Origin: Martelella lutilitoris
GTDB taxonomy: Bacteria; Pseudomonadota; Alphaproteobacteria; Rhizobiales; Rhizobiaceae
Assembly (NCBI RefSeq): GCF_005924265.1
Contig: NZ_VCLB01000002.1
Span: forward strand, 62,001-126,000
Direction: 5' to 3'
DNA length: 64,000 bases
The translations under genes and the position numbers were made by a program. This document shows, in pieces, positions 19,510 to 56,474 of the stretch. A model generated the notes under the pieces. The model was not told where the DNA came from. It did not search any database and worked only from the letters and a program-made list of their open reading frames with translations. The first letter of the stretch is position 1. Every line of letters begins with the position of its first letter.

Positions 19510-20616
19510 ATGGCAAAGATCGTCCGCGCCGAGCTGGTGATGGTTGACCTCAGGCCGAAGGTAACGCGCGTCGACGCGATCCAGTCCTTCGTTTCCCAGG
19601 AAACCCCGATCGTGCGCCTCACCGATGCCGACGGGGTGACCGGCACCGGCTATTCCTACACGATCGGCACGGGCGGGCCCTCGGTGATGGCGCTTCTGGA
19701 GAAGACGCTGCTGCCGGCGATCATCGGTCGCGAGGCGTATGACATCGAGCGCATCTGGCGTGATCTTTCCTTCCTGACCCATGCCACAACGGTCGGCGCG
19801 ATCACCGCGATCGCGCTTGCCGCCATCGACACAGCGCTCTGGGACCTGAAGGCGGTTAAACTTGGCCTGCCGCTCCACAGGTTGGCCGGCGGGGCGAAGG
19901 ACGAAATACCGCTTTACACGACGGAAGGCGGCTGGTTGCATCTGGAAACCGAAGCGCTTGTCGCCGATGCGATTGAGGCCAAGGCCAACGGATTCTCCGG
20001 CTGCAAGCTCAAGGTCGGTCGTCCGCTGTCGGAAGACGTCGCGCGGATCTCTGCGGTGCGCGAGGCTGTCGGCCCGGCCTTCGAGATTTTCACCGATGCC
20101 AATCAGGCCTTTGCCTTGGACGAGGCCGTGCGCCGGGCCGCCGCCTATGAGCGGCTCGATATCGGCTGGCTGGAAGAGCCTTTGCCCGCCGATGATATCG
20201 AGGGGCATTCGGTGCTCTCACGCCACACCAGCGTGCCGGTGGCCGTCGGAGAAAGCCTTTATTCGGCGCTTCATTTCCGCGAATATCTGGAGCGGCGGGC
20301 CTGTTCCGTCATTCAGGTTGATGTCGGGCGCATCGGCGGCATCACGCCCTGGCTCAAGGTTGCGCATATGGCCGAATGCTTCAACGTCGCCGTGGCGCCA
20401 CATTTCCTGATGGAACTGCATGTTTCGCTGTGCGCGGCGGTGCCCAATGCGCGCTGGGTGGAATATATTCCCCAACTCGATGCGATCACGCTTGGGGGCA
20501 TGACCATTCGCGATGGTCGCGCCATTCCCTCTTCCGCGCCGGGCCTCGGCATCGCATGGGATTTCGAAGCCATCGGCCGCATGGCCGTAGAGGGCTCGCA
20601 AAAGACAATCAACTGA
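19510..20616 (+). CDS. Mandelate racemase/muconate lactonizing family dehydratase (enolase superfamily)
   Basis: A 368-residue sugar-acid dehydratase candidate. Catalytic residues of the mandelate racemase subgroup are in place: Lys166 and Lys168 (CKLKVG), metal ligands Asp196, Glu222 and Glu248, and the Asp271/His298 dyad. It should take a proton next to a carboxylate and eliminate water from an aldonate. It is distinct from FucD further downstream, so the operon probably handles a second sugar acid or an epimer. The substrate cannot be read from the sequence. Confidence 0.87.
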   Translation: MAKIVRAELVMVDLRPKVTRVDAIQSFVSQETPIVRLTDADGVTGTGYSYTIGTGGPSVMALLEKTLLPAIIGREAYDIERIWRDLSFLTHATTVGAITAIALAAIDTALWDLKAVKLGLPLHRLAGGAKDEIPLYTTEGGWLHLETEALVADAIEAKANGFSGCKLKVGRPLSEDVARISAVREAVGPAFEIFTDANQAFALDEAVRRAAAYERLDIGWLEEPLPADDIEGHSVLSRHTSVPVAVGESLYSALHFREYLERRACSVIQVDVGRIGGITPWLKVAHMAECFNVAVAPHFLMELHVSLCAAVPNARWVEYIPQLDAITLGGMTIRDGRAIPSSAPGLGIAWDFEAIGRMAVEGSQKTIN

Positions 20617-20633
20617 CGTTCAAGGGAGCGATC

Positions 20634-21365
20634 ATGACCGACCTTTCCGGAAAAACCTGTTTCATCACCGCCGCTGCGCAAGGCATCGGCGCGGCATCGG
20701 CCAAGGCGTTTGCCAGGGCCGGCGCGAAGGTGATCGCTACCGATGTCAACGCCGAGAAGCTGAAGGAGCTTGATGGCATCGAGAACATTTCGACACGGGT
20801 CCTGAACGTGCTGTCGGATGAGGCGGTCACCATCGCCGCGCAGGAAATCGGCGAGATCGATATCCTGTTCAACTGCGCCGGCATCGTCCACAACGGCTCG
20901 ATTCTTGAGAGCAATGAAGGCGATCTCGACCTTGCCTATGACCTGAACGTCAAGGCCATGGTGCGCACCATCCGCGCCTTCCTGCCCGGCATGCTCGAGC
21001 GCGGCGACGGGGCGATCATCAACATGTCCTCTGTCGCCTCCAGCATGAAGGGCGTTCCCAACCGCTTTGCCTACACCACCACCAAGGCCGCCGTTCTCGG
21101 CCTGACCAAGTCGGTCGCCGCCGATTTTGTCTCCAAGGGCATTCGCTGCAACGCCATCTGCCCCGGCACGGTCGACAGCCCCTCGCTGCAGGAACGGCTG
21201 AAGGCGACCGGCGATTATGAAAAGGCGCGCGCCGATTTCATCGCCCGCCAGCCGATCGGCCGCATTGGCGCGCCGGAGGAGATCGCCGATCTCGCCGTCT
21301 ACCTTGCCGGCGCAACCTATACCACCGGCCAGGCCTACGCCATTGACGGCGGCTGGACCTGCTGA
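20634..21365 (+). CDS. SDR family dehydrogenase, probable 2-keto-3-deoxy-L-fuconate dehydrogenase
   Basis: A 243-residue classical short-chain dehydrogenase with cofactor motif TAAAQGIGAASA (about 12-23), NCAG, and the YxxxK pair in YTTTKAA. It ends in the usual TTGQAYAIDGGW. Its place between the two dehydratases and the FAH hydrolase fits oxidation of 2-keto-3-deoxy-L-fuconate at C4 to the diketo acid, as in the Xanthomonas/Burkholderia pathway. The role is inferred from context; the fold is certain. Confidence 0.88.
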   Translation: MTDLSGKTCFITAAAQGIGAASAKAFARAGAKVIATDVNAEKLKELDGIENISTRVLNVLSDEAVTIAAQEIGEIDILFNCAGIVHNGSILESNEGDLDLAYDLNVKAMVRTIRAFLPGMLERGDGAIINMSSVASSMKGVPNRFAYTTTKAAVLGLTKSVAADFVSKGIRCNAICPGTVDSPSLQERLKATGDYEKARADFIARQPIGRIGAPEEIADLAVYLAGATYTTGQAYAIDGGWTC

Positions 21366-21395
21366 TCCGCACCGATAACAACCGAAGTTCAGACC

Positions 21396-22682
21396 ATGAC
21401 CGAAATCACCGGACTGTCCGTCCACGACCTGCGTTTCCCGACCTCCGCCAAGCTTGACGGTTCGGATGCCATGAACCCCGATCCCGATTACTCCGCTGCC
21501 TATGTCGCGCTGAAAACGGATGGCGAATTTGAAGGCCACGGCCTGACCTTCACCATCGGCCGGGGCAATGAAGTGGTCTGTGCCGCGATCGCCGCGCTTG
21601 AAAACCGCGTGAAGGGGCTGAGGCTCGACTGGATCGCCGAAAACCCGGGCCGTTTCTGGCGTCACGTCACCGGCGACAGCCAGTTGCGCTGGATCGGGCC
21701 GGACAAGGGCGCGATGCATCTGGCGACCGGCGCCGTCGTCAACGCCGTCTGGGACCTGATGGCAAAGGCTGAAGGCAAGCCGGTTTGGCAGCTTGTCGCC
21801 GAAATGACACCGGAACAACTCGTTTCTATTATCGATTTCCGCTACCTGACGGACGCGATCACGCCGGACGAGGCGCTTGAGATTTTCCGCAAGGCCGAGG
21901 CCGGCAAGGCGGAACGCATCGCTGAGCTGAAAAAGAACGGCTATCCCTGCTATACGACGTCCGCCGGCTGGCTCGGCTACAGCCACGACAAGCTGCGTCG
22001 TCTGGTGCAGGAGGCCGTCGACAGCGGCTTCACCTTCATCAAGATGAAGGTCGGGCAGGATCGTGACGAGGACATCGCCCGGCTGAAGATCGTGCGCGAG
22101 GTGATCGGCGAGGATCGCACGCTGATGATCGATGCCAATCAGGTCTGGGAGGTCGACCAGGCGATCGACTGGGTGAGGGCGCTTGCGCCGTTCCGGCCCT
22201 ATTTCATCGAGGAGCCGACCAGCCCCGACGACGTCGCCGGCCACAGGAAGATCCGTGAGGCGGTGGTCCCGATCAAGGTCGCGACCGGCGAGATGTGCCA
22301 GAACCGCATCCTGTTCAAGCAGTTCATCGCCGGCGGCGCCATCGATATCGTCCAGATCGATGCCTGCCGCATTGGCGGGCTGAACGAGGTGCTTTCGGTT
22401 CTGGTGATGGCGGCGAAATACGGCCTGCCGGTCTGGCCGCATGCCGGCGGCGTCGGCCTTTGCGAATATGTCCAGCATCTGTCGATGATCGATTATCTGG
22501 TCGTCTCCGGCACAAAGGACGGCCGGGTCATCGAATATGTCGATCATCTGCACGAGCATTTCGTCGATCCCTGCCGGATTGAGGGCGCGGCCTATATGCC
22601 GCCGCAAATGCCGGGCTTTTCCATTGAGATGAAGCCGGAAACGCTTCATAACTACGCACACCCGACGCCCCGGGCGTCGTAA
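21396..22682 (+). CDS. fucD: L-fuconate dehydratase
   Basis: Enolase-superfamily enzyme converting L-fuconate to 2-keto-3-deoxy-L-fuconate. The 428 residues carry Lys216-Met-Lys218, Asp246 and Asn248 (IDANQ), Glu273, Glu299 (ATGEM), Asp322 and His349 in WPHAGG, all displaced by about two from the numbering I recall for X. campestris FucD. The long N-terminal capping domain and the ending CEYVQHLSMIDY are also typical. It lies 30 bases after the SDR and 15 before the FAH hydrolase. Related acids such as L-galactonate or D-arabinonate may also be used. Confidence 0.94.
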   Translation: MTEITGLSVHDLRFPTSAKLDGSDAMNPDPDYSAAYVALKTDGEFEGHGLTFTIGRGNEVVCAAIAALENRVKGLRLDWIAENPGRFWRHVTGDSQLRWIGPDKGAMHLATGAVVNAVWDLMAKAEGKPVWQLVAEMTPEQLVSIIDFRYLTDAITPDEALEIFRKAEAGKAERIAELKKNGYPCYTTSAGWLGYSHDKLRRLVQEAVDSGFTFIKMKVGQDRDEDIARLKIVREVIGEDRTLMIDANQVWEVDQAIDWVRALAPFRPYFIEEPTSPDDVAGHRKIREAVVPIKVATGEMCQNRILFKQFIAGGAIDIVQIDACRIGGLNEVLSVLVMAAKYGLPVWPHAGGVGLCEYVQHLSMIDYLVVSGTKDGRVIEYVDHLHEHFVDPCRIEGAAYMPPQMPGFSIEMKPETLHNYAHPTPRAS

Positions 22683-22697
22683 CACGGGAGAATTGAC

Positions 22698-23549
22698 ATG
22701 AAACTGCTTCGCCTTGGCGCCAGGGGCGCCGAACGGCCCGCCATCCTGCATTCCGATGGCACTTACCGCGACATTTCCTCCGTCGTCGTCGACATTGCCG
22801 GCGACGCGCTGACGGCTGCCGGGCTGGCGCGCATTGCCGCTGCCGATATCTCCAGCCTGCCGGTCCTGCCGCAGTCGAGCCGGATCGGTCCCTGCGTCGG
22901 CAAGGTCGGAAAATTCATCTGCATCGGGCTCAACTATGCCGACCACGCGGCCGAAACCGGCGCCGACATTCCGAAGGAGCCGATCGTGTTCATGAAGGCG
23001 ACCAGCGCCATCATCGGCCCCAATGACGATGTCCGCATTCCGAGGAACTCGAAGAAGACCGACTGGGAAGTCGAGCTCGGCGTCGTTATCGGCAAGGAGG
23101 CATCCTATGTGGATGAAGCCGATGCGATGGACCACGTCGCCGGATACTGCGTCGTCAACGATCTGTCCGAGCGCGAATTCCAGATCGAACGATCCGGCCA
23201 GTGGGTGAAGGGCAAGAGCGCCGACACTTTCGGCCCGATCGGTCCCTGGCTGGTGACGCGTGATGAGGTGGAAGACCCGCAGAGCCTCGCCATGTGGCTC
23301 GAGGTTGACGGACATCGTTATCAGGACGGCTCGACCAAGACGATGATCTTCGGCGTCTCGCACCTCGTCAGCTATCTGTCGCAGTTCATGAGCCTGCAGC
23401 CCGGCGACATCATCACCACCGGCACGCCGCCCGGCGTCGGCATGGGCATCAAGCCGGAACCGGTCTATCTGAAGGAAGGCCAGACGATGACGCTCGGCAT
23501 CGAAGGCCTCGGCGAACAGAGCCAGAAGACCATCGCCTGGAACGCCTGA
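22698..23549 (+). CDS. Fumarylacetoacetate hydrolase family protein, probable 2,4-diketo-3-deoxy-L-fuconate hydrolase
   Basis: Last step of the pathway: cleaves the diketo acid to pyruvate and L-lactate. The 283-residue protein has the FAH core with metal ligands in the E-x-E of DWEVELGVVIG and the Asp of VVNDLSERE, plus KGKSADTFGPIGPW and the TGTPPGVG loop. It ends the operon and is followed by a hairpin terminator. Confidence 0.9.
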   Translation: MKLLRLGARGAERPAILHSDGTYRDISSVVVDIAGDALTAAGLARIAAADISSLPVLPQSSRIGPCVGKVGKFICIGLNYADHAAETGADIPKEPIVFMKATSAIIGPNDDVRIPRNSKKTDWEVELGVVIGKEASYVDEADAMDHVAGYCVVNDLSEREFQIERSGQWVKGKSADTFGPIGPWLVTRDEVEDPQSLAMWLEVDGHRYQDGSTKTMIFGVSHLVSYLSQFMSLQPGDIITTGTPPGVGMGIKPEPVYLKEGQTMTLGIEGLGEQSQKTIAWNA

Positions 23550-24305: not shown

Positions 24306-25634
24306 TCAGGTCCTCGTTGCGGACGCCCCCGCCCAGGTCGCGATGAACAGTGCCGTTGCGGCGATCATGTCGAGGAATTCGCTGCGGTCGACCCATTCGT
24401 CGGAGAAACCGTTCTGGGTGAGGTTGCCGCAAAGCGCGCCGAAACCGACGGCGGGGATCGCCTTCTGGACAAAGGGGTTGCGGATATCGCTGCCGGTATG
24501 AAGCGCATTGAGCGCGGGGCGCTCACCGGTGACGGAGGCCACGCAATCGGCAAGTCCGGAAAAGAGCGGCGCATCGGGATCGACCTCGCTCGGCGAGACG
24601 CCGGTCAGGAAGGTCAGTTCCGGCGCGTGGACCGCCAGCCACTCATCGCCTTCAGCTGCCGCTTTGATCGTTGTCTCGATCTCGGCGCAGACAGAGGCGA
24701 GCGTTTCGCCCGGCGGAAAGGAAAGCGCGGCTGAAAAGATTGCGCCTTGCGGATAGCGCGCGAGAGCCTTCGGTCTGCCCATCGCCATGTGCGAAATCAT
24801 CAGGTTGGTGGAGCGCTGCACTGCCTGTTCCAGAACCGGGTGGCGGATCCGTTCTGCCCGCTCCCTGTCCATGCGCCTGAGCGCCGCGATCAGAGACTGG
24901 GCCTTCTCCAGCGGATCGATGCCGAGATGGGCAAGTGCGGTCTGCAGCGGCTCGGTGGTCGGCGGCTGGCGGCCGGCAACAGTGACTGAAAATTCGACAT
25001 GGCCGGAAGAGAGCCCCTTGATCTCGCCAAGCCCCGCGCCGGATTCGGCCGGGTGCAGATAGACTGCGACGTCGGCGTCAACGCCGTGATCGCAGAGAAG
25101 CGCCGCCGTGCCGCGCGCGAGCGCCTTGCTGGGCGCCGAGGCGAAGATCACCTCGACATCGGAGGGCAGCGCGATTGCTTCGAGGACGGCCGGAAGGGCC
25201 GCCATGGCGGCTACGCCCGCGAGGTCGTCGGCAATGCCCCAGCCATGCATGCGCCCGTCTCTGATGTCGAGGGTGAAGGGATCGCGCGACCAGCTTTCAG
25301 GGGCATTCACCGTCTCGGCATCGGGATGGGCGAAGACGAGGATCCGGGTTTGGGCGTCTGGATTGCCGAGGCGGGCGACCACCGCCGTCTGCTCGTGGTC
25401 GGGGAGCAGGGAGGGGTGGGCGAATTCATCGACGAGGCTCACGTCTTCGGGGCGGTACCGGATGGTCTCGACCCTGCAGCCGCTTTCGGCGAAACGGCCG
25501 GCAAGACGGCTCTGGACATTGCCGCCGCCGGTCTTCTGGTCCGCAATCAGCGCGCCGAGAAGCGCGAGCGTCTCGTCCTGCCGGTTCTCGACCACATTCT
25601 TTGCCTTTAAAACGAGTTCTGTCGGCACGGGCAT
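24306..25634 (-). CDS. M20-like metallopeptidase family protein with degenerate active site
   Basis: A 442-residue protein with the M20/DapE layout: a VFAHPDAETV segment for the first metal His and Asp, GWGIADD for the bridging Asp, HPAES for a later ligand, and the ending DEWVDRSEFLDM seen in many members. The acidic EE pair that normally follows the third strand (catalytic base and ligand) is replaced by a stretch reading FASAPSKAL, and the C-terminal metal His is not evident (LTQNGFSDEW). Activity as a standard peptidase is doubtful. It lies between the dehydrogenase-like gene (8 bases upstream) and GntR. Confidence 0.75.
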   Translation of the reverse strand: MPVPTELVLKAKNVVENRQDETLALLGALIADQKTGGGNVQSRLAGRFAESGCRVETIRYRPEDVSLVDEFAHPSLLPDHEQTAVVARLGNPDAQTRILVFAHPDAETVNAPESWSRDPFTLDIRDGRMHGWGIADDLAGVAAMAALPAVLEAIALPSDVEVIFASAPSKALARGTAALLCDHGVDADVAVYLHPAESGAGLGEIKGLSSGHVEFSVTVAGRQPPTTEPLQTALAHLGIDPLEKAQSLIAALRRMDRERAERIRHPVLEQAVQRSTNLMISHMAMGRPKALARYPQGAIFSAALSFPPGETLASVCAEIETTIKAAAEGDEWLAVHAPELTFLTGVSPSEVDPDAPLFSGLADCVASVTGERPALNALHTGSDIRNPFVQKAIPAVGFGALCGNLTQNGFSDEWVDRSEFLDMIAATALFIATWAGASATRT

Positions 25635-25642
25635 GGCGGCTC

Positions 25643-26443
25643 CTAAAAGATGATGGCATCGCTGCGGGCGGCAAGCATGGCGAGGATCGAATAGGCCGTG
25701 TGATCCGGACCTTCCGATGGCCTGTCGCGATAGGGGCCGATATCAAGCCGGATCGGCGCGCCGAGGCTTTCGATATCGAGCGCGTAGCGCATATTGCCGA
25801 TGGCGGGATCGCCGACGAGCTCGATAGTCGTGTCATCGAGGCCGAGCCCCGCCAGCGCAACGCCGACGGCGGCGTTGAGATTGAAAGGAAAGCGGGACGC
25901 CGCGGCGCGCACCGAACCTTCGAAGAAGGACCCGGTAAACTGCAACGCATCCGTCTCGCCGGAGATCTTGGCCCAGTGGGAGGGCAGGTAGGTCTGGCGA
26001 AAGCGGACCTTTTCGATCCCGGCCTTGCGTGCGACGCGAAGCAGCGGCAGCGCGGCGGCAGCGCCCGATGGGATGGAAAGTCGGCCCGGCCCCGCGTCAG
26101 CGGCTTCGCGCAACCGTGCCTCGACGGCCGGATCGGCAAAGGCGGTGAGCGAGAGCGCCACGAGATCGACGCCTGCGACCAGGATATCCGAACCGGCGGC
26201 GGCGAGGGTTGCGGGCGAGGCGCATTCGACGATCAGATCCGGTGCGGTCGCGAGCGCTGCGTCAAGGTCGGCGAAGACCCGGACGGCGGGGTCGGCGGCG
26301 ACCGCCTGAGCGTCGCGCGCCACGACGCCGGCGAGGACCGGGCCGTTGTCACCGGCAGCGAGCGCTCGGGCCACGCGGCGGCCGATGCGGCCATAGCCGA
26401 GGACCACGCAGGTCTCGCGGTGTTCGGAAAGGGGATCGGTCAT
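25643..26443 (-). CDS. Aspartate dehydrogenase-like NAD(P)-binding protein
   Basis: A 266-residue protein resembling L-aspartate dehydrogenase (NadX/DUF108 family). A Rossmann motif VLGYGRIGRRVARAL stands near residue 14, and the C-terminal domain has RFPFNLNAAVGVALAGLG followed by a DP-x-x-x-N segment. Where the family has a catalytic His after that Asn (NxH), this protein reads NMR, so it may act on another substrate. I start it at 26443; an upstream ATG at 26494 would overlap the likely operator. It heads the three-gene operon ending in GntR. Confidence 0.78.
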   Translation of the reverse strand: MTDPLSEHRETCVVLGYGRIGRRVARALAAGDNGPVLAGVVARDAQAVAADPAVRVFADLDAALATAPDLIVECASPATLAAAGSDILVAGVDLVALSLTAFADPAVEARLREAADAGPGRLSIPSGAAAALPLLRVARKAGIEKVRFRQTYLPSHWAKISGETDALQFTGSFFEGSVRAAASRFPFNLNAAVGVALAGLGLDDTTIELVGDPAIGNMRYALDIESLGAPIRLDIGPYRDRPSEGPDHTAYSILAMLAARSDAIIF

Positions 26444-26492
26444 GCGGGCGCCCGGGGTCCTTGTGGCGTGCCGGCTTGTCACGGCATCATTC

Positions 26493-26514
26493 AATGTATA
26501 ACAATTGTATACCG
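26493..26514. promoter_or_regulatory. Candidate GntR operator in the divergent promoter
   Basis: The AT-rich stretch contains GTATA and TATAC as inverted arms around ACAATTG, and the half-site ATTGTATAC typical of FadR-group GntR operators. It lies between the dehydrogenase-like gene and the lactonase gene, so one site could control both directions. Confidence 0.5.
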
Positions 26515-26584
26515 TTAGTGTACCTTATGGCAAGCGCGCTCCGCCTTGCCCCTCCGGCCACCCGGAACCGAACAGGAATGACGG

Positions 26585-27613
26585 ATGACGAAAGACAATC
26601 GGCAGAAAGGCTATGTGCAAACTGTAACGGGTCCGATCCGCCCGGATGCGCTCGGGCCCACGCTGATGCACGAGCATGTTCTCTGCGACCTGACTCCGCC
26701 TGCCCGGCGCGGCGGCAGGGAGGTCGAGATCACGTTTCAGAACGTGTTCGACGTGAACTGGCGGCCGAACGACTATCCGGGCAATCATCGCCTGCAGGAT
26801 GAGGACGTAGCCATCCGCGAGGCCCGGTGGTTCGCAGAGGCGGGCGGCGGCACGATCGTCGACGTCACGACGGGCGGGATCGTGCCGGACCCTGCGGGCC
26901 TTGCGCGGGTGGCAAGGGCAAGCGGTGTCAATATCGTCATGGGTGCGGGCTTCTACACCGAACCCTTTCTGGATGCCGACACGCTGTCTTTATCGGAAGA
27001 TGCGCTATTCGACATCATGCTGGCGCAGATGGTGGACGGCGAGACCGGCATCCGCTGCGGCATCATCGGCGAGATCGGCTGTTCATGGCCGCTGACGCCG
27101 TTCGAGGCCAGGAGCCTGGCAGCCGCCGCCCGCACCCAGCGCGAGACCGGAGCGACGATCACGGTCCATCCCGGCAGACACCCAGACGCCCCGCATGAAA
27201 TTCTCGACATTCTGGAGAAAAACGGCGCCGATATCGCCCGGGTGATCATCGACCACATGGAGCGTACGCTGCTGGAACCCGAGGTGCTGGCACTGGCAAG
27301 GCGCGGCTGCGTGGTCGAATATGATTTCTTCGGCATCGAGCAATCGAATTACTGGCTCGGCATTCTCGATCTTCCGACCGACTGGATGCGGATCAGGACG
27401 ATCGCCAAGCTTTTCGACGCCGGTCTCGGCGACAGGGTGACCCTGTCGCACGACATCTGCACGCGCGGCCGCCTGCAATCCCATGGCGGCCACGGCTACA
27501 GCCATCTCCTGCGCAATGTCGTGCCGCTGATGAAGGATCGCGGATTCGGACAGGCGGAAATCGATCAGTTGCTGGTCGAAACGCCCCGCCGCCTTCTGAC
27601 CCTGCCGGGCTGA
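26585..27613 (+). CDS. Phosphotriesterase-like family lactonase/hydrolase
   Basis: A 342-residue amidohydrolase of the phosphotriesterase family, whose natural roles are mostly lactone opening. Metal residues visible: HEH (about 30-32), His in VHPGRH, His in DHME, and Asp in SHDIC. The residue bridging the two metals is Glu (IIGEIG) where phosphotriesterase has a carbamylated Lys, as in E. coli PHP-type proteins. AGGA precedes the ATG by seven bases. It diverges from the dehydrogenase/M20/GntR operon and probably acts in the same pathway. Confidence 0.87.
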   Translation: MTKDNRQKGYVQTVTGPIRPDALGPTLMHEHVLCDLTPPARRGGREVEITFQNVFDVNWRPNDYPGNHRLQDEDVAIREARWFAEAGGGTIVDVTTGGIVPDPAGLARVARASGVNIVMGAGFYTEPFLDADTLSLSEDALFDIMLAQMVDGETGIRCGIIGEIGCSWPLTPFEARSLAAAARTQRETGATITVHPGRHPDAPHEILDILEKNGADIARVIIDHMERTLLEPEVLALARRGCVVEYDFFGIEQSNYWLGILDLPTDWMRIRTIAKLFDAGLGDRVTLSHDICTRGRLQSHGGHGYSHLLRNVVPLMKDRGFGQAEIDQLLVETPRRLLTLPG

Positions 27614-27645: not shown

Positions 27646-28062
27646 TCAGTCTTCCGCCAGTTCGAAGCGGATGTCCTGCGCGCCTTCCCAGAGCGTCAGC
27701 CGGCCGATCTCGGACAGCTTGTCGAGGTTCGACGTAATCGTGATGAAGTGGTTGCCGGCAAGCTGGCCCATCTTGGACGAGAAATCGACGCCGCCATAGG
27801 CCAGCAGGATTTCCGTCTCGCTGATGCCGCCGGGATAAAGGATGATATGGCCGGGAGCGGGATGGCTGGTATGGTTCTCGTAGGAGACGCCGAAATCCTT
27901 GTCGCCGAGCGGGATCCAGACGCCTTCCCCGGACCAGCGGACATGCACGACCTGCCCTGTGAAGGGCATGTGCTTCAGGAAAGCCTCGACGGTTTTCGGA
28001 GCCTTCTCGGTTTCCAGGACGGCATCGAATGTGTGCGGGCCGGCGGTGATCTTCAGTTTCAT
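27646..28062 (-). CDS. DUF3830 family (cyclophilin-like fold) protein
   Basis: A 138-residue protein beginning MKLKITAGPHTFDAVLE and containing PGHIILYPGGISETEILLAYG, which I recognise as the DUF3830 family, predicted to have a cyclophilin-like fold. Members occur beside amidohydrolases and transporter genes; the function is unknown. It is the last gene of the amino-acid importer and oxidase operon, 41 bases after the ATPase stop. Confidence 0.75.
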   Translation of the reverse strand: MKLKITAGPHTFDAVLETEKAPKTVEAFLKHMPFTGQVVHVRWSGEGVWIPLGDKDFGVSYENHTSHPAPGHIILYPGGISETEILLAYGGVDFSSKMGQLAGNHFITITSNLDKLSEIGRLTLWEGAQDIRFELAED

Positions 28063-28103: not shown

Positions 28104-28832
28104 TCAGTGCTGCAGGATCTTGCTCAGGAAAGCGCCGGTGCGCGGATTATGATTGCCGGAGAAGAAGTCTTCGCTCGGCCGGTCCTCGACGATCTCGCCC
28201 TGGTCGATGAACACGACGCGGGTGGAGACGCGGCGGGCGAAGCCCATCTCGTGGGTGACGACGATCATGGTCATGCCGTCCTTGGCCAGATCCGTCATCA
28301 CGTCCAGCACCTCGGAGATCATTTCCGGATCAAGCGCCGAGGTCGGCTCGTCAAACAGCATGGCGATCGGGTCCATGGCAAGCGCACGGGCGATTGCGAC
28401 GCGCTGCTGCTGGCCGCCCGAAAGCTGGCCCGGATATTTCTGCGCATGGTCAACAAGGCCGACGCGATCGAGAAGCTGCATCGCCTTGGTGTTGGCCGCG
28501 CCGTCGGAACGTCCGAGCACGATCTTCTGCGCCAACTTGATGTTCTCGATCACCGTGAGGTGCGGGAAAAGCTCGAAGTTCTGGAACACCATGCCCACCT
28601 GCGCGCGCAGTTCCGTCAGATCCGTCTTCGGATCGCCGACCTCAATGCCGTGGACCCGGATCGAGCCGCTGTCGAAGGGCTCAAGTCCGTTGATGCATTT
28701 GATCAGCGTCGATTTGCCGGACCCGGACGGTCCGCAGACGACGACGATCTCGCCGCGATCGACCTTGGTCGTGCAGCTCTTCAAGACGTCGAAATCGCCA
28801 TAGGATTTGGTGAGGCCGTTGATCTCTATCAT
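28104..28832 (-). CDS. Polar amino acid ABC transporter ATP-binding protein
   Basis: A 242-residue ATPase of the GlnQ/HisP group: Walker [10 protein letters not shown] near residue 33, signature [15 protein letters not shown], and [11 protein letters not shown]. The ATG at 28832 overlaps the stop of the fusion oxidase gene (ATGA), so importer and oxidase are translationally coupled. The cognate permease and binding protein lie upstream at 32675-34279, split from the ATPase by the catabolic genes. Confidence 0.93.
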
Positions 28833-31753
28833 CTGGTGGTTCCCGTAAAGCGTTCGATTGAAAAGGGCGTCAGGTCGAACCCGGCATCCTCGCCGAGAAT
28901 GCTGAGCGCCGTCGTTTTGCCGACCAGCGGGCCAAGCGTGTAGCCGTTCGAGGTGACGGCGTTGAAAAAACCGGGGCAGGCGGGATGTTCGCCCAGGATC
29001 GGCGCGCCGTCTATATTGATGTTCATCGCCGCCCAACTGCGGATCACATGCAGCTTGCGAAGACCCGGCACCACATGCTGGGCGACCCAGAGATTGCCCT
29101 CCAGGCTCTCCGGCAGCGGACGCGGGTGCTGGTGGACGGGATCGAGCCCCGCCGTCCAGCCACCGCCGATGATGAAATTGCCGTTTGCCGCCTGTTTCAG
29201 CGTCAGGTGCCGGTCTGCATGGGCGACAAGAGCGGTAATCGTCGGCTCCGCCGCCTCGGTGACGACCATCTGCAGCGGCGCGCCGAAGACCGGGATATCG
29301 AGCCCGAGCATGGCGCCGACCCTTGAGGCGAAGGCGCCCGCCGCATTGACGACGCGCTCCGCCTTGATGGGACCGCGTGAGGTGGCGAGGGTGAAGCCGT
29401 CATCGTCGCGCTCGATCGACAGAACCGAGCAGCGGTCGAAGAGCTGCGCGCCATGGCGTCTGGCTTCCCGCAGGACGCCGTCGGTCGCCACCAGCGGATT
29501 GATCTTGCCTTCCTGCGGACAGTAGGCCGCGCCGATGAAGCGGTCGGAAAGCGCGGGTTCGAGCCTGCGCAATTCGCCCTGTCCGATCACATGGCAGTCG
29601 ATGCCCGCACGCCTTTCAACCTCGGTCTTTTCCTCGAGGAAACGGAGATGCGCCTCAGTCTCTGCAACCATCAGCCCGCCGGTGATCTTCATTTCGAAAT
29701 CGCCGCCGGTCTCTTTTTGAAGCGCCTGCCACAGCGCAATCGACTCCCTCTGCAGAGGAAGGGTGCGCGCTGCCGGGCCGCCGCCGGCCTCGGCACGCGC
29801 GCCATGATCGAAGGAGAGAAGCTGGGCATGGAGACTGCCGGCATTGCCGCCGGAAGCGACTGCGTTCGGATAGGCATGCTCCAGTACAACGACATCCTCG
29901 CCGGCGCGCGCCAGGTAGAGCGCCGTCGAAATGCCGGCAATGCCGCCGCCAATGATGACGGTCGCGGCTTTTGAACGCGGCAATGGTTGGTCTGCCTGCA
30001 ATGGCGGCCGGTCTGGCAACATCGCATGCTTGTGGCCGCCCCATTCGCCCTTTTCCACGGCGAGGGCCGCAAGGGGTATGGGTCTGAGCGGCATTTGCGG
30101 GGCGAGAAAGCCGTTCGTTTGTGAAGGAAGGGGCTTTCCGGCATTGGCGATTTCTGCGAGCGCTTTGCCGCAATAGCGCGACTGGCAGCGCCCCATGCCG
30201 GCGCGGGTCAGGCGCTTCAGGCTAGCGATATCCGAAACGCCGCGCTCAACGAGGTCGTTGAGCGCTTTGAGGCTGACGCCCTCGCACCGGCAGACGATCA
30301 TGTCCTCATCGGGCGTTGCGTCATCCTCAATCGCAGGGGCGAAGAGCCGCCAGAGCGCCCTCTGGAAGCGGCGATGACGGGCAAGCATTCGGGTTTCCGC
30401 CGCTTGATCGATGACGGTCTTTCCGTTCAATCTTTCGATCAGCGCCGCTGCGGCCAGCCGGCCCTCGCTCATGGCCACGAAAGCGCCGCCGAAACGCGCC
30501 GCCTCGCCGATGACATGAATGTGGGGGAGCGAGGTCCTGCCGGTCGCATCGGTCAGGGTTTCAAGCGCGCCGTCCCGTGGTTCGTGGGCGCAGCCGAGCA
30601 GGCGCGGCAATTCGTTGGAAGCGGTAAAGTGGCCGCCGATCAGCACGGTGTCGGCGGCAATCGTCGTCCTGCCGCGCGCCGTCTCGATCGTGACGGTCTC
30701 CACCGCACCGCCGCCGTCAATACCTGCGAGACGGCTCTTCCAGTGGATCTTCACGCCGGCCGCGCGCAGCCGCGCCAGCTGGGTGGTGCCGGCAATGGCG
30801 AGCGCGCGATCGGATCGCATCAGCTCGAGCCCCGCCATCGGTCTCTTGAAGGGGGAGGCCGCCTCCTCGATGATGGCGGAGACCCTGCCGCCGGCGCGGA
30901 CGATCTCCAGCGCGACCTGAAAATTCAGCGGGCCGTTGCCGGCAATGACGATTGAGCGCCCGGCCAATGTTCCGTAGCTACGCAACAGCGTTTGTGCCGC
31001 GCCGACCGTCATCGCGCCCGGCAGCGTCCAGCCCCTGACGGCGGGTGGGCGTTCATGCGCGCCGGTGGCAATGATGACCGCGCGCGCCCGGCAGTAAAAC
31101 GCGCCGTCGGGCCCAAGACAGGAAAGGACGATGCGCCCGTCTTCCTCGTGAAATCCGCCCCAGACCAGCGTTTCATGGCGGATCATCACGCCTTTGGCTC
31201 GGACCCGGGCGATCAGATCGGCCCCGTCTGCGGCCTGGCGATCGGAGGAAAGCGCTGTCTTCGCGGCATCCGTGGCGGGTTGCTTGTAGAACTGGCCGCC
31301 GGCATCGTGGCGTTCGTCGATCATGACGACAGAAAGCCCGCTTGTCGCTGCCGTTTCCGCAGCCGCCAGCCCTCCGGGGCCCGCGCCAACGATCACCAGG
31401 TCCGTCTCGGTGGTCTCGATTGCCTCGGGCAGACGTGCGAGATCGGCGATCGCTGGGTTAGCGACCTGCGGTCGGGGCGCCTGCCGTCTCACGTCCATGC
31501 CGTCTTCGACGCGGCGCATGCAAGCGCGCTGGCTGACCTTGCCGTTGATGGTCACAAGACAATCATGGCAGGCGCCCATGCCGCAGAAGAGCCCTCGCTC
31601 TTCTCCCTTGACGTCGCGGGAAAAGCCATGGCAGCCCCAGGCCTCAAGCGCCGACGCCACCGAGCTTCCGGGTTCGACGGAAAGCGGTGTGCCTTCGAAG
31701 GTCATTCGGACCTTCGATTGGGCTCCTGTTTCGGCGTTCGCGTGCGGGGCCAT
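28829..31753 (-). CDS. Three-domain fusion flavoprotein dehydrogenase (HcnA-HcnB-HcnC / opine or hydroxyproline oxidase type)
   Basis: A 974-residue single chain joining what are normally three subunits. Residues 1-90: a [2Fe-2S] ferredoxin-like domain with Cys57, 62, 65 and 78, like HcnA. Residues about 118-550: a pyridine-nucleotide-disulfide-type FAD domain ([12 protein letters not shown] at 122-133) ending in a BFD-like cysteine cluster (Cys488, 490, 523, 528), like HcnB/OoxA. Residues about 598-974: a DAO domain ([12 protein letters not shown]), like HcnC/OoxB. Relatives oxidise D-amino acids, cis-4-hydroxy-D-proline, glycine or opines. I start at ATG 31753; a TTG at 31801 inside the lyase gene is less likely. 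Confidence 0.88.
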
Positions 31754-31766
31754 GACATTACGGCTT

Positions 31767-32657
31767 TCAGTTCGTGAAGCTGAGGCCGAAGGCCTCGACA
31801 AGCGCCTTCATCTCGGCGTCGCGGTCGTCGGGCAGCGGCAGGCGCGGCGGACGGGGCGGGCCGGCCTGAAAGCCCATATGGTTGAGCAGGGATTTGGAGC
31901 CGGCGACATAAGCCTGGCCGCCCACGGCGTTGATGACCGGCAGCCATTTGAGATAAAGCGCGCGCGCCTCTTCATATTTCTTCTCGTCCGCCACCAGCTC
32001 GAAGATCCGCGCCATCGGGCCGGGCGCGACATTGGAGGCGACCGCGACCCAGCCTTTGGCACCCATGACGAAGGATTCATACCCCATGATGCCGCCGAAA
32101 ACGGTCATGTTGTCTCCAACGCCGAGAATGATATCGCGAACGCGGAAGATTTCGAGCGTTGATTCCTTGATATAGTCGCAGCCGTCGATCTCGGCGATCC
32201 GGGCAACCAGATCGGGCTTCAGGTCGACATTGGCCGTTGCCGGGTTGTTGTAGACCATCACCGGGATATCGATCGCGCCTGCGATCCGGCGGTAGTGCTC
32301 GACCAGCTCGTCGTCGGTGGGCGTCGAATAGAAGGGCGGGATCACCATCACCCCGTCCGCGCCCATGGCTTCGGCCTCGCGGCTGAGGCGCACGGCCTCC
32401 CTTGTATCTTCCGCGCCCGTGCCGATGAGAACGGGGACGCGGCCGGCCGCCGTCTCGATCACGGTGCGGGCAACGCCGTCGCGCTCTTCCTGGCTCAGCG
32501 ACAGGAATTCGCCGGTAGAGCCGAGCGGGATGAGCCCGTGTATGCCCTGATTGATCTGCCAGTCTGTAAATTCTGCAAGTGCTTCCAGATCGACGCTGCC
32601 GTCATCGGCGAGCGGCGTGATCATCACGGTGAAGACGCCGCGAAAAGTCTTGGTCAT
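31767..32657 (-). CDS. Dihydrodipicolinate synthase family lyase/deaminase
   Basis: A 296-residue class I aldolase-type protein. It has the GSTGE loop (46-50), Tyr136 in VYNNP and the Schiff-base Lys164 in YIKES. True DapA has a biosynthetic role, but in an operon with an amino-acid importer and an amino-acid dehydrogenase this is more likely catabolic, for instance like the delta1-pyrroline-4-hydroxy-2-carboxylate deaminase of hydroxyproline breakdown or a keto-acid lyase. It lies 17 bases after the permease and 13 before the fusion oxidase. Confidence 0.87.
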   Translation of the reverse strand: MTKTFRGVFTVMITPLADDGSVDLEALAEFTDWQINQGIHGLIPLGSTGEFLSLSQEERDGVARTVIETAAGRVPVLIGTGAEDTREAVRLSREAEAMGADGVMVIPPFYSTPTDDELVEHYRRIAGAIDIPVMVYNNPATANVDLKPDLVARIAEIDGCDYIKESTLEIFRVRDIILGVGDNMTVFGGIMGYESFVMGAKGWVAVASNVAPGPMARIFELVADEKKYEEARALYLKWLPVINAVGGQAYVAGSKSLLNHMGFQAGPPRPPRLPLPDDRDAEMKALVEAFGLSFTN

Positions 32658-32674: not shown

Positions 32675-33367
32675 TCAGCGCTTCTCAGAGAGCGTCAACC
32701 GCGAGTCCGACTGGCCGAAATGCCGTTCGATGCGAACCTGGATCAGATCCCATAGCGTTGTCAGTAAGAGGTAGTAGATTGCCGCAACGGCGAAGAGTTC
32801 GAGCACCATGAAGCGTTCCTGGATCAGGATTTGCGTGCGGCGCAGAAGCTCCTCCATCGAGATGACGGAGGTGACGGAAGTGGTTTTCAACAGCCCGTTC
32901 ACGGAATTGCCGAGCGGCGGGATGATGATGCGGAAGGCCTGCGGCATGATGATCTTGCGCATGATCTGCCGTTCCGTCATGCCGAGCGCGCGGCCGGCGC
33001 GCGACTGACCCTCGGAAACCGCCTCGATGCCGGAGCGGATGATCTCGGCGAGATAGGCCGCCTCGTTCAGCGAAAGGCCGAGAAGGGCGGCTTCCGTCAC
33101 CGAAAAACGGATGCCGATCACCGGCAGCGCCGTATAGATGACGATCAGCTGCACCAGCAGCGGTGTGCCGCGGAAAAGCCAGATATAGGCTTTCGCGATC
33201 ATCTTGACGATGCGGATGTTCGACCGGCGCATCATGGCGATGCCAAAGCCGAGAACCAGGCCCGCGACCAGCGAAACCGCCGTCAGCCAGATCGTGGTGA
33301 CCACGCCGCCAAGGAGAAACGGATTGAAGAGATAGCTGAAAAAACCGGACCAGTTCCAAAGCGACAT
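32675..33367 (-). CDS. Polar amino acid ABC transporter permease
   Basis: A 230-residue HisM/GlnP-type inner-membrane protein with four to five predicted spans and the loop RAGRALGMTERQIMRKI that contacts the ATPase. Only one permease gene is present, so it probably works as a homodimer with the ATPase at 28104-28832. Confidence 0.92.
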   Translation of the reverse strand: MSLWNWSGFFSYLFNPFLLGGVVTTIWLTAVSLVAGLVLGFGIAMMRRSNIRIVKMIAKAYIWLFRGTPLLVQLIVIYTALPVIGIRFSVTEAALLGLSLNEAAYLAEIIRSGIEAVSEGQSRAGRALGMTERQIMRKIIMPQAFRIIIPPLGNSVNGLLKTTSVTSVISMEELLRRTQILIQERFMVLELFAVAAIYYLLLTTLWDLIQVRIERHFGQSDSRLTLSEKR

Positions 33368-33445: not shown

Positions 33446-34279
33446 TCAGCGGCCGGGGCCCTTGACGGAATAGTCGCCATCGACCATCGGCAGGCCGTAT
33501 TCCTCAAACAGCGCGCCGAGCGTGCCGTCGGCCTTCATCTCGACCAGCGTTTCGGATACGGCATCGGCAAGCGCGGGGCTCTTCATCGCGACGGCGACCG
33601 GGGCAGGGTAGAGGCCGGAGAGCGCAGTCTTGAAGTCGCCGCGCGTGTCATATTCCTTGGCAACGGCGTCGATCGAAACCACGCCGTCGACCTGGCCGGC
33701 GCGCAACGCCTGGAAGGCCATGGCGAAATTGTCGAAGGTGCGGATGTCGATGCCCTTCATGTTTTCGCCCTTCAGCTCCTCGTCCATCAGGCGCAGCTTG
33801 CTTTCCTCGAAGCCGCCAATCTCGACGCCGATGGTCATGCCGTCGAGGTCTTCCTTGGTGGCATATTCGGCATCGCTGTCAGGGGCGACGGAGATGCTGA
33901 TCGCCTGGTTTTCGTAAGGGATCATCTGCATCAGCCCGGCTCGCTCCTCGGTGTAGAAGATGCCGGTGTTGATAAGGTCCCAGCGACCGGACTGAAGGCC
34001 GGGAATCATCGCGGAAAACTCGATGCGGACATATTCCGGTTCCAGGCAGAGACGCTTGGCGATTTCCTTGCCGAGCTCGATACGCATGCCCTGAAGGTCG
34101 CCCTTGGAATCAACGAACTGCAGCGGCGGCAGCGTCGGGTTGGTCGACATGATGAGCGTGCCGGGCGTGATCAGTTCGCTGTCGGCGACCTCGGGCGTGC
34201 AGTCCTGTGCATTCGCGACGGAGGCAGCGCCGAGAAGAAGGGTTGCGGAAAGCAATTTCATCGAAAGTGTTCTGGACAT
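33446..34279 (-). CDS. Amino acid ABC transporter substrate-binding protein (family 3)
   Basis: A 277-residue periplasmic protein of the polar-amino-acid (SBP family 3) fold. A signal peptide ends at NAQ near residue 25, two cysteine-containing segments follow (DCTPEV and RLCLEPEY), and the ligand lobe has LPPLQFVDSKGDLQGM. AGGAAGA about six bases before the ATG at 34279 supports the start. It is the first transporter gene of the operon. Confidence 0.93.
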   Translation of the reverse strand: MSRTLSMKLLSATLLLGAASVANAQDCTPEVADSELITPGTLIMSTNPTLPPLQFVDSKGDLQGMRIELGKEIAKRLCLEPEYVRIEFSAMIPGLQSGRWDLINTGIFYTEERAGLMQMIPYENQAISISVAPDSDAEYATKEDLDGMTIGVEIGGFEESKLRLMDEELKGENMKGIDIRTFDNFAMAFQALRAGQVDGVVSIDAVAKEYDTRGDFKTALSGLYPAPVAVAMKSPALADAVSETLVEMKADGTLGALFEEYGLPMVDGDYSVKGPGR

Positions 34280-34392: not shown

Positions 34393-35040
34393 TCAGTAGT
34401 TCCTGAGGACACCCTCCCGCACCATGTCCAGATGCCGGATCATGGCCTGGCGGGCGCGGTCTGCGTCTTCATCAGCCAGCGCCTCGATGATGGCGCGGTG
34501 TTCAGCCACGCCCGGCTTGGACCTGCCGGTCCTTGCCTGCCGCTCGAAGATCGTGGTGTAGCGACGCATGTCGGCGATGGTCGTTTCCATGAAGCCGTTG
34601 CCGCATTGTCGGGCGATGGTCAGATGCAGGTTGTCATCGAAGCGCCAGACATCCTCCGGGTCGGGGTCCGGCGAGCGGTCGATCGCATCGAGTTCCTCGG
34701 TGAGCGCGGCAAGCCTTTCGGCTTCGATATTGCCGCAGGCCTGGGAGGCCGCCGTCGGCTCAAGCAGCATGCGCATGGCGAGGCTGTCGAGATATTCCTT
34801 CAGCGTGACGACCCTGACGGCCAAGAGCCCCTTGCCGGTGCGCACCAGAAGCCCTTCGCCCTCCAGCCGGCTGATGGCGTGGCGCATGGGGGAGCGCGAC
34901 ACGGAATGCTCGGCCGCCAGCCGGCGCTGCTGGATGACCGTGCCGCCCGCAAGCCGCGCCGACAGGATCTCCGCCAGGAGCGCGCGATAGGCTTCCTCGG
35001 CGAGGCTGGTTTCGGGTGGGCTTTCGGGGTCCTGAAGCAT
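34393..35040 (-). CDS. GntR family transcriptional regulator (FadR/FCD subgroup)
   Basis: A 215-residue regulator with winged helix (RRLAAEHSVSRSPMRHAISR) and an FCD domain with metal-type histidines (NLHLTIARQC and EHRAIIEAL). It is immediately upstream of the amino-acid importer/fusion-oxidase operon on the same strand, with the 14-bp palindrome between them, so it is the likely repressor of that operon. It diverges from a second GntR gene. Confidence 0.9.
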   Translation of the reverse strand: MLQDPESPPETSLAEEAYRALLAEILSARLAGGTVIQQRRLAAEHSVSRSPMRHAISRLEGEGLLVRTGKGLLAVRVVTLKEYLDSLAMRMLLEPTAASQACGNIEAERLAALTEELDAIDRSPDPDPEDVWRFDDNLHLTIARQCGNGFMETTIADMRRYTTIFERQARTGRSKPGVAEHRAIIEALADEDADRARQAMIRHLDMVREGVLRNY

Positions 35041-35152: not shown

Positions 35153-35836
35153 GTGACTGGCTCCGTAGCGCAACATAAACCGAAGTTTGAGGGGAAAGGC
35201 CAGCACAACCTCGCCTCTCTGACCTACCGGGCCGTCTCCGACATGATCCGCCACCGGCGCCTGCGCGGCGGCTCCGTCATCGTCGAGGCAAAGCTTGCCG
35301 AAGCGCTCGGTATCTCGCGAACACCGCTTCGCGAGGCGCTGCAGCGGCTTGAGGGCGAGGGGCTGGTGCTGAAGGGCAACGGCCGCAACTACGTGGTGCG
35401 CCGGGTCGATATCGGCGAATATCTGCAAAGCCTGAAACTGCGCCTTCTGATCGAGCCGGAAGCCGCCGTGCTTGCCGTGCCGTCGATCCCCAAGACGAAG
35501 CTGATCGCGGTGCGCCGCGAGGTTCAGGAACTTTTTGAGGCCAGCAGCTACCACACCGACGAGCACTGGTTCTCCGACGATAATCTGCACAACATGATCA
35601 TCGATTATTGCGGCAATCAGGTCATGGCCAAGGTTCTGCGCGAGCTGAGGGCGACCACGCGGCTGTTCGAGATCGACCAGCTGAAAGACCGGTTGACGCC
35701 GGATTCCGCCGAGCATCTGGAGATCATCGAGGCGATCGAGAAAAAGGACCTCGAGGCGACCCGCATTTCGGTTGCCAACCATGTGCAAAGCCTGATCGAT
35801 TTTGCCCGCCGGAACCTTGTTCTGGGGACGGGCTGA
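35153..35836 (+). CDS. GntR family transcriptional regulator (FadR/FCD subgroup)
   Basis: A 227-residue regulator with a GTG start: winged helix (AEALGISRTPLREALQRLEG) and FCD domain (NLHNMIIDYCGN). It stands alone between the divergent GntR and the convergent FGGY kinase. Its linker and FCD domain are strikingly like those of the GntR at 23606-24301 (for example VVRRVDIGEYLQSLK), which suggests that the two are paralogues and bind similar operators or related acids. Confidence 0.9.
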   Translation: MTGSVAQHKPKFEGKGQHNLASLTYRAVSDMIRHRRLRGGSVIVEAKLAEALGISRTPLREALQRLEGEGLVLKGNGRNYVVRRVDIGEYLQSLKLRLLIEPEAAVLAVPSIPKTKLIAVRREVQELFEASSYHTDEHWFSDDNLHNMIIDYCGNQVMAKVLRELRATTRLFEIDQLKDRLTPDSAEHLEIIEAIEKKDLEATRISVANHVQSLIDFARRNLVLGTG

Positions 35837-55747: not shown

Positions 55748-56464
55748 ATGTACACTTCATCACAGAGCGCACCGGTCATCATGGTATCCGGCGCCAATCG
55801 CGGCATCGGCGCGGCGATCGTCCGGGACCTTCTTCAGCACGGCTACCGGCTTTCGCTCGGCGCGCGCGATGTTGCCAAGCTCGAGGCCGCGTTCGGCGCA
55901 CCCGGAGAGATGCTGCGCTATCACCGCTTCGATGCCTTTGAGCCTGAGACGGCGAAAGCGTGGGTCGATGCCACGGCTGCGGATTTCGGCCGCATCGACG
56001 GCCTCGTCAACAATGCCGGAAGCGGCGAGCAGGTGCTGCTTACCGACGACAATGAAGAGGCGCTGGACCGGCTCTGGGCCGTCAACGTCAAGGCGCCGCT
56101 GCGGCTGACGCGCCTCTGCCTGCCGCATCTGGAAGAAACGGGTCGCGGGCGGATCGTCAACATCGTCTCGATGTCGGGAAAACGCGTGCGCAACGGCTTC
56201 GTCGGTTACAACATGACCAAGTTCGCGGTGATGGGCCTCACACACACGACCCGTCACGTCGCCTGGGAAAAGGGTGTGCGCGCCACTGCGATCTGCCCGA
56301 GCTTCGTGCGCACCGAGATGAGTTCCTACACCAGCAAGGTCAAGCCTGAGGACATGATCCAGCCGGAAACCATGGCCGAACTGGTGCGCACCGCAATCGA
56401 GCTTCCCAACAATGCGGCGATGGCGGAAATGCTGGTCAATTGTCGCCTTGAAGACATGCTCTGA
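55748..56464 (+). CDS. SDR family oxidoreductase
   Basis: A 238-residue short-chain dehydrogenase with VSGANRGIGAAI, NNAGS and the catalytic pair in YNMTK. It is the first gene of the rightward operon, ten bases before the FAD oxidoreductase. The C terminus lacks the usual GG-x-DGG ending, so it belongs to a less typical SDR branch. Substrate unknown. Confidence 0.9.
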   Translation: MYTSSQSAPVIMVSGANRGIGAAIVRDLLQHGYRLSLGARDVAKLEAAFGAPGEMLRYHRFDAFEPETAKAWVDATAADFGRIDGLVNNAGSGEQVLLTDDNEEALDRLWAVNVKAPLRLTRLCLPHLEETGRGRIVNIVSMSGKRVRNGFVGYNMTKFAVMGLTHTTRHVAWEKGVRATAICPSFVRTEMSSYTSKVKPEDMIQPETMAELVRTAIELPNNAAMAEMLVNCRLEDML

Positions 56465-56474
56465 GGATTGCGCC

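Follow-up and report, generated by a model that had tools for sequence, protein, structure and literature searches.

A single 974-residue chain uniting gamma, alpha and beta subunit homologues of the OdhABC/HcnABC superfamily in Martelella lutilitoris and relatives

The DNA analysed here, hereafter the window, is a stretch of 64,000 nucleotides from Martelella lutilitoris (RefSeq assembly GCF_005924265.1, contig NZ_VCLB01000002.1, positions 62,001 to 126,000). We focused on one minus-strand gene that runs from an ATG at 31753 to a stop codon ending at 28829 and encodes a protein of 974 amino acids (aa); the plus-strand reading of 28829-31753 is interrupted by stops. The original prediction, that one 974-residue chain holds homologues of all three subunits of the HcnABC/OdhABC/D-hydroxyproline dehydrogenase (D-HypDH) type, was borne out by the open reading frame (ORF) and by Pfam, which placed Fer2_4 at residues 13-92, Pyr_redox_2 at 118-431, Fer2_BFD at 486-535 and DAO at 599-949, all above cut-off. 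Residues 490-565 also gave a weak Pfam match to SO_alpha_A3, and a GCV_T match was absent from the scan. Among the best 25 of 122 NCBIfam families for this chain (soxB, ThiO, soxA and others) none reached its cut-off, and annotated plasmid records with a full-length homologue label it 'FAD-dependent oxidoreductase'.

Relatives were found in a scan of genome records with short patterns from the window protein. The scan confirmed 83 loci, of which the best 80 were kept and underlie all locus counts below (11 of the 80 are shorter than 15.9 kb); because of the patterns and of this choice, the sample leans to close relatives. Gamma, alpha and beta parts lie in one open frame in 77 of the 80 loci, with best-segment identities of 42 to 82% across the loci. 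The other three loci are a copy from a metagenome-assembled genome (MAG) with the first part in another frame (L071) and two copies cut by contig ends (L101, L110); among the 77, the beta part ends early in L036, and a contig end truncates L095. Since the frame is open over both junctions in the window and in the 77 loci, neither junction is a sequencing error, and the linker error that could have undone the original prediction is excluded. The same count does away with the picture of an isolated fusion. Two long matches with inner stops (L019, L020) proved to be neighbouring separate genes.

The hosts of the fusion include Rhizobium (with R. johnstonii 3841, L107), Agrobacterium, Martelella, Aureimonas, Methylobacterium, Devosia, Azospirillum, Burkholderiales MAGs and one Desulfovibrio, and 14 annotated plasmid records (H1-H14, including Variovorax) match as one uninterrupted segment over 98-99% of the chain. 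The spread is patchy: a near-full-length match was found in 11 of 201 close relatives and, at E 1e-120, in 4 of 398 members of the phylum sample and 3 of 385 of the class sample, the own genome being counted each time. The fused chain is confirmed as genuine and as conserved but patchy in many rhizobia and their relatives. Its parts are listed below; n=49 refers to the alignment described thereafter.

28829..31753, minus strand: probable fused gamma-alpha-beta dehydrogenase, 974 aa (ORF, Pfam; 77 of 80 fetched relatives fused)
31478..31717, minus strand: gamma part, Fer2_4 [2Fe-2S] domain, residues 13-92 (Pfam E 6.6e-22; cysteines invariant, n=49)
30461..31402, minus strand: alpha part, Pyr_redox_2 flavin adenine dinucleotide (FAD) domain, residues 118-431 (Pfam E 1.7e-31; 1y56_A template modelling (TM) score 0.84, target-normalised)
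30149..30298, minus strand: alpha part, BFD-type [2Fe-2S] domain, residues 486-535, with C488, C490, C523 and C528 (Pfam E 6.2e-9; cysteines invariant, n=49)
30059..30136, minus strand: alpha C-terminal tail, residues 540-565, common to split alphas (tails of 17 split or two-gene alphas compared)
29972..30058, minus strand: fusion-only linker, residues ~566-594, with EKxEWxGH at 567-574 (motif counts in fused ORFs)
28907..29959, minus strand: beta part, DAO domain, residues 599-949 (Pfam E 1.1e-68; 1y56_B Z 42.6, 4ysh_B Z 42.6)
29801..29848, minus strand: beta loop around NAGSLHxQLLSxDxG, residues 636-651 (invariant positions; compared with 17 non-fused betas)
29000..29041, minus strand: fused-clade beta motif of 14 residues, 905-918, whose R-x-W is a putative flavin mononucleotide (FMN) motif (alignment; R-x-W reading from PMC4575208)

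The separate-subunit family is well known, and the new part is the single-chain form. As originally stated, relatives use separate subunits: in the characterised ones alpha, beta and gamma are distinct subunits (PMC4575208), and the presumed nox of pTiC58, placed between arginase and noc genes, comprises three genes. The complete three-part fusion was not found described in the titles and abstract openings of the literature searched, outside which most subscription papers fall, nor in the available parts of PMC4575208, PMC4113996, PMC6608401, PMC9045290, PMC8581550 and PMC8491902. The proviso that many fused homologues might already be characterised was half right, as many close fused homologues exist but no characterised one was found. 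The superfamily motifs are all present, namely the gamma-type C-x4-C-x2-C-x11-12-C, the alpha GxGxxG with CxC...Cx4C, and a beta DAO domain with GxGxxG and R-x-W. With one 974-aa chain in place of three separate subunits, the protein is a variant of the OdhABC/D-HypDH/HcnABC superfamily and not a plain member.

Conservation of the cofactor motifs was read from 49 full-length chains, the window protein and 48 of the 75 loci (from the 80) that passed a length filter. The motifs are intact, as had been claimed: C57, C62, C65, C78, C488, C490, C523 and C528 are all invariant, as are the GxGxxG glycines G123/G125 and G602/G604/G607, with G128 nearly so. The gamma cysteines follow the spacing C57-x4-C62-x2-C65-x12-C78, which agrees with the gamma motif given for opine dehydrogenase (PMC4575208) and recurs in all 92 fused ORFs, duplicates included (L002-L005 equal L031, L048, L051 and L061, and L001 and L128 are both the window gene). 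The alpha [2Fe-2S] motif of the window reads CxC-x32-C, as against X15-20 between its two halves in the Fig. 6 legend of PMC4575208; 32-34 residues separate the alpha cysteine pairs in the 12 compared rows labelled non-fused, one of which (L071) is a broken fusion.

An AlphaFold2 model based on the 49-row alignment had a mean predicted local distance difference test score (pLDDT) of 89.3 and a predicted TM score (pTM) of 0.90, so the placement of the domains in the chain is predicted with confidence. By block, pLDDT was 60 at residues 541-550, 89 at 561-570, 70 at 571-580 and 80 at 581-590, and 67, 66 and 54 in the three blocks of 631-660. No PDB chain among the matches listed spans the whole protein. 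Against the 958-position family profile, the L-proline dehydrogenase of Pyrococcus horikoshii (1y56) covers 2-263 and 316-553 with chain A and 582-957 with chain B, and the two chains have target-normalised TM scores of 0.84 and 0.86, respectively, at 20-26% identity (Z 42.6 for B). Like the fusion, this enzyme has a GKxxP stretch without the covalent-FMN histidine; unlike it, it consists of two separate chains, and its gamma-like N-terminus lacks the [2Fe-2S] cysteines in the alignment. The alpha and beta chains of heterotetrameric sarcosine oxidase (TSOX; 2gag, 1vrq) are also among the best structural matches. TSOX resembles the fusion in an alpha with Fer2_4, FAD and BFD/SO_alpha_A3-like regions and in a DAO-type beta, and differs in having separate alpha and beta, a covalent FMN (PMC9045290) and an alpha GCV_T domain (Brucella homologue).

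The histidine that binds FMN covalently in TSOX is H173 in 2GAG (PMC9045290). In the alignment with 2gag_B, P753 of the fused family, invariant in the 49 chains, sits at this position, and P753 and V755 stand at the two histidine positions (H173 and H175 by chain count). R905-x-W907 is invariant in the 49 chains, and R-x-W in beta is a putative FMN-binding motif (PMC4575208). Together, P753 and R905-x-W907 make a non-covalent FMN plausible in the fused enzyme, and with this FMN-linked motif invariant, the two flavins originally counted may be one short.

The alpha-beta joint had been described as a Pro-rich linker at residues 540-595. That description does not hold up to about residue 565, where the chain has an alpha tail ('FAPR-P-KP...' or similar) that also lies near the C-terminus of split and two-gene alphas; only residues ~566-594 are extra. 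In the fusions this tail is followed by a segment of ~29 residues in which E567, K568, E570, W571, G573 and H574 are invariant (n=49). EKxEWxGH occurs in 90 of the 92 fused ORFs, the exceptions being L008 (QKPEWGGH) and L011 (EQPEWGGH). The core xEWxGH is found in all 92, and the joint is thus a conserved element. Across all ORFs of the compared loci, EKxEWxGH occurs outside fused ORFs only in L071 and L101, which are broken or cut fusion copies, and EW[GA]GH in 2 of 88 other domain-bearing ORFs, presumably the same two. We infer that the segment probably works as a structured clasp keeping beta on alpha, and not as a loose tether. A fixed 1:1:1 ratio of the three parts follows from the fusion, as predicted.

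Trees were built from hand-picked rows. The first alpha set had 66 rows, 43 of them fused, and a second had 51, after removal of 17 fused near-duplicates and addition of L125 and L126; of 73 beta rows 72 were used, a short one being left out. HcnABC was not among the rows, and the L125 beta is in no tree. In the beta tree a single branch (100/99; 100% of 200 bootstrap trees) sets the 43 fused rows apart; the nearest group is a two-gene form with gamma and alpha fused and beta separate (98/91); several branches of this tree are long and its deeper joins are unsure. In the alpha tree the fusions and the two-gene form share a 100/100 branch, with the two-gene form nested among the fused rows. The simplest story would be that gamma and alpha were joined first and beta later; fused chains may also have split again, or alpha parts may have been exchanged.

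The two-gene form (L012-L014, L017, L018 and L115 beta-2) thus comprises the nearest relatives of the fusions; L122 and the other beta of L115 are more distant. Unlike the fusions, it has beta as its own gene, no EKxEWxGH, and WAGxN in place of the fusions' 10-residue beta signature. No window-type operon genes were matched at two-gene loci L012, L013 and L017, where flanks are short. WAAMNINID and the NAG...QLLSxDxG loop are present in all eight fused betas compared; neither WAAMNINID nor LLSxDxG is found in any of 17 non-fused betas, several of which have NAGSLHxQ. These fused-only motifs suggest a substrate shared across the fused clade and unlike those of the known enzymes.

Related arrangements were seen on three plasmids. 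On the Ti plasmid pTiCFBP4996 (L122, 6944-9864) a beta gene is followed by a fused gamma-alpha gene near saccharopine-dehydrogenase-like, RidA and amino-acid ATP-binding cassette (ABC) transporter genes, perhaps an opine-catabolism set. An Antarctobacter plasmid (L115, 7090-10785) has a 3-hydroxyacyl-CoA-dehydrogenase-like gene, a fused gamma-alpha gene and a separate beta, with a second related beta at 1-1119. The order beta1-gamma-alpha-beta2 on an Azospirillum plasmid (L114, 5854-9824) is that of the Bradyrhizobium OdhB1-C-A-B2 octopine dehydrogenase (PMC4575208).

The genes around the fusion in the window are listed below with their occurrence at the 80 loci. The survey covered flanks of up to 7 kb, shorter at some loci, and its homologue cut-offs (40% for the ATPase, for example) can let unrelated genes through.

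35153..35836, plus strand: second GntR/FCD regulator, divergent (71 of 80 loci; both GntR queries can match the same gene)
34393..35040, minus strand: GntR/FCD regulator (Pfam; 71 of 80 loci)
33446..34279, minus strand: ABC substrate-binding protein, family 3 (Pfam; 72 of 80 loci)
32675..33367, minus strand: amino-acid ABC permease (Pfam; 71 of 80 loci)
31767..32657, minus strand: lyase/deaminase of the dihydrodipicolinate synthase (DHDPS) family, 13 nucleotides upstream of the fusion (PF00701; 77 of 80 loci)
28104..28832, minus strand: amino-acid ABC ATPase (70 of 80 loci at an identity of at least 40%)
27646..28062, minus strand: DUF3830 protein (Pfam; 60 of 80 loci)
26585..27613, plus strand: phosphotriesterase-family hydrolase, accessory (14 of 80 loci)
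25643..26494, minus strand: aspartate-dehydrogenase-like protein, accessory, start codon uncertain (9 of 80 loci)
24306..25634, minus strand: M20-family amidohydrolase/peptidase, accessory (19 of 80 loci)

The ATG of the ABC ATPase overlaps the stop of the fusion (ATGA). The 60 solved chains among the matches listed for the DHDPS-family partner are all named dihydrodipicolinate synthase/synthetase or 4-hydroxy-tetrahydrodipicolinate synthase, with no ligand listed, and the best solved match of the DUF3830 protein has an E of 0.023. The listed relatives of the binding protein are mostly amino-acid binders of many kinds. A dihydropyrimidinase (hydA) homologue is present at 43 of the 80 loci. At the Martelella radicis locus (L031) and in the window (L128) no dihydropyrimidinase homologue passed beside the fusion, and the M20, aspartate-dehydrogenase-like and phosphotriesterase genes are present.

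At 24306-27613 the window thus carries these three genes where many Rhizobiaceae loci have the dihydropyrimidinase, and in Agrobacterium albertimagni (L053) the aspartate-dehydrogenase-like, phosphotriesterase and hydA genes occur all in one locus. Two enolase-superfamily genes, a short-chain dehydrogenase and an FAA-hydrolase gene adjoin the cluster on the plus strand (19510-23549), perhaps a sugar-acid pathway. A second, separate DAO-family gene of 459 aa (Pfam E 1.1e-69) lies at 56412-57791 of the window.

A similar operon with split genes occurs in Pantoea sp. At-9b (L119). There the gamma, alpha and beta genes are ordered as the domains are in the fusion, and DHDPS, hydA, GntR and amino-acid ABC genes accompany them, together with an alanine-glyoxylate aminotransferase-family gene. 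Unlike the window, it has three genes for the enzyme, no DUF3830 in the gene listing, and long branches (1.4-1.5 for alpha and 3.0 for beta).

Taken together, the fused protein is probably a single-chain, dye-linked amino- or imino-acid dehydrogenase of gamma-alpha-beta order, respiratory and not NAD-dependent, acting within a catabolic operon. The dehydrogenase type is the most likely one by analogy with OdhABC and D-HypDH (PMC4575208) and with 1y56, and the operon logic supports catabolism. The ABC transporter would import an amino- or imino-acid-like compound, and amidohydrolases (the dihydropyrimidinase in about half of the loci, M20- or phosphotriesterase-type enzymes in the window) would probably serve to open or trim it. 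The DAO domain, with the beta FAD, would then oxidise the N-C-alpha bond of what is most likely a D-configured or cyclic amino acid. From the beta FAD electrons would reach the alpha FAD and the iron-sulfur centres, probably by way of a non-covalent FMN where alpha and beta meet, and would go on to the respiratory chain; the imine or oxo acid product would be cleaved by the DHDPS-family lyase/deaminase. As to the substrate, our leading guess, made solely from the company of hydA, M20 and DHDPS genes, is a D-amino acid or cyclic imino acid linked with a cyclic amide or hydantoin. More tentatively, the fused clade may be a distinct respiratory dehydrogenase with a single conserved substrate not described so far, a D-amino or cyclic imino acid derived from a hydantoin- or cyclic-amide-type compound, with the product cleaved by the DHDPS-family lyase and EKxEWxGH lying in the alpha/beta (FMN) interface.

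Several points weigh against this proposal. We know of no relative in the fused clade whose substrate is known, so the reaction rests on superfamily membership. In the window no dihydropyrimidinase lies beside the fusion (a 55% paralogue is ~66 kb away in the own genome); given this and the count of just 43 loci, the pathway may vary among lineages or need no hydA. The FMN and the order of electron transfer are borrowed from distant relatives, 1y56 being 20-26% identical. In Pantoea the DHDPS is below the homologue cut and the beta lacks the 10-residue fused-clade signature; together with the beta branch of 3.0, this suggests that the Pantoea enzyme may act on another compound. In the 66-row alpha tree the starred branches force two changes, and a single change occurs in 0% of the 200 bootstrap trees; in the 51-row alpha tree one change is seen in just 6% of trees. 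Constraining the fusions as one clade in the 51 alpha rows cost 2.84 log units and was not rejected (p-AU 0.135), so that a single origin is neither shown nor rejected by the alpha tree alone. Finally, D-HypDH is fully catalytic with its beta subunit alone (PMC4575208); the other parts are thus perhaps not needed for turnover, and turnover by itself does not make plain what fusing them would bring.

Other functions were weighed against the proposed dehydrogenase, and for the first two, which the original prediction had named as relatives, trees and neighbourhood speak against identity. A fused opine dehydrogenase, nopaline- or octopine-like and acting on plant or microbial opines, is unlikely. 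OdhABC/Nox is built from the same three kinds of subunit and shares the cofactor motifs and R-x-W (PMC4575208), the fusion occurs in Agrobacterium and Rhizobium, the family-3 binding protein is weakly similar to a nopaline-binding protein (E ~1e-8), and the Ti plasmid pTiCFBP4996 bears a related two-gene form. However, OdhABC/Nox are encoded by separate genes with other neighbours and other beta motifs, and in both alpha and beta trees (long branches in beta) the fused/two-gene group excludes the Nox of pTiC58 and the Odh-like sets. A DHDPS lyase and, at many loci, a dihydropyrimidinase are the conserved neighbours of the fusion; arginase and ocd, for which the 80 loci were not searched, adjoin nox.

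A cis-4-hydroxy-D-proline dehydrogenase of the hydroxyproline pathway seems improbable as well. A DHDPS-family neighbour accompanies the 4-hydroxyproline pathway (PMC4113996), and the window DHDPS is 34.8% identical to that of an epimerase cluster (L125). The alpha4beta4gamma4 D-hydroxyproline dehydrogenase shares subunit kinds and a DHDPS-family partner with the fusion, but its genes are separate and, in Streptomyces coelicolor, stand in one operon with the epimerase (PMC6608401). With one query protein each, both from L118, no homologue of the proline racemase/epimerase (30% identity) or of HypD (35%) that covered 60% of the query was found at any of the 80 loci, a cut that weaker homologues could escape. 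The own genome has a separate epimerase and HypD-type pair on another contig. L125 is a beta-gamma-alpha set near an epimerase, assigned by context alone; in the 51-row tree its alpha groups with Odh/Nox-like alphas (100/99), away from the fusions, and its beta lacks the fused-clade motif. The pair in the own genome is a proline racemase/epimerase adjoining a HypD-type DHDPS gene (L118 12070-13997, contig C3), with a GntR-like gene recognised by eye; a relative of the fused chain was not found on this contig at E 1e-10.

That the chain is an oxygen-using oxidase like TSOX is very unlikely. The TSOX chains are among its best structural matches, but the GCV_T folate domain is absent, no histidine stands at the covalent-FMN position, and the site resembles the beta of L-proline dehydrogenase, which is dye-linked. 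HcnABC has the same three domain kinds, which counts for a hydrogen cyanide (HCN) synthase in one chain, converting glycine to HCN and CO2. HCN synthase is also a listed relative (PMC4575208), but with its conserved transporter, lyase and hydrolases the operon looks like one that imports a compound and breaks it down, and this function is highly improbable. An assembly error joining two or three genes, for which nothing was found in favour, is refuted by the 77 loci in one frame and the conserved linker.

The fusion is a single-chain model of a known complex, not a new enzyme class. The characterised enzymes of the family are heteromers and hard to handle: PMC4575208 describes difficulties in purification, and its OdhABC was fully active only with all three subunits. 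For structural and electron-transfer studies, one natural chain that carries every cofactor motif offers a simpler subject. Its conserved operon marks a catabolic pathway in rhizobia, including R. johnstonii 3841, in agrobacteria and in azospirilla.

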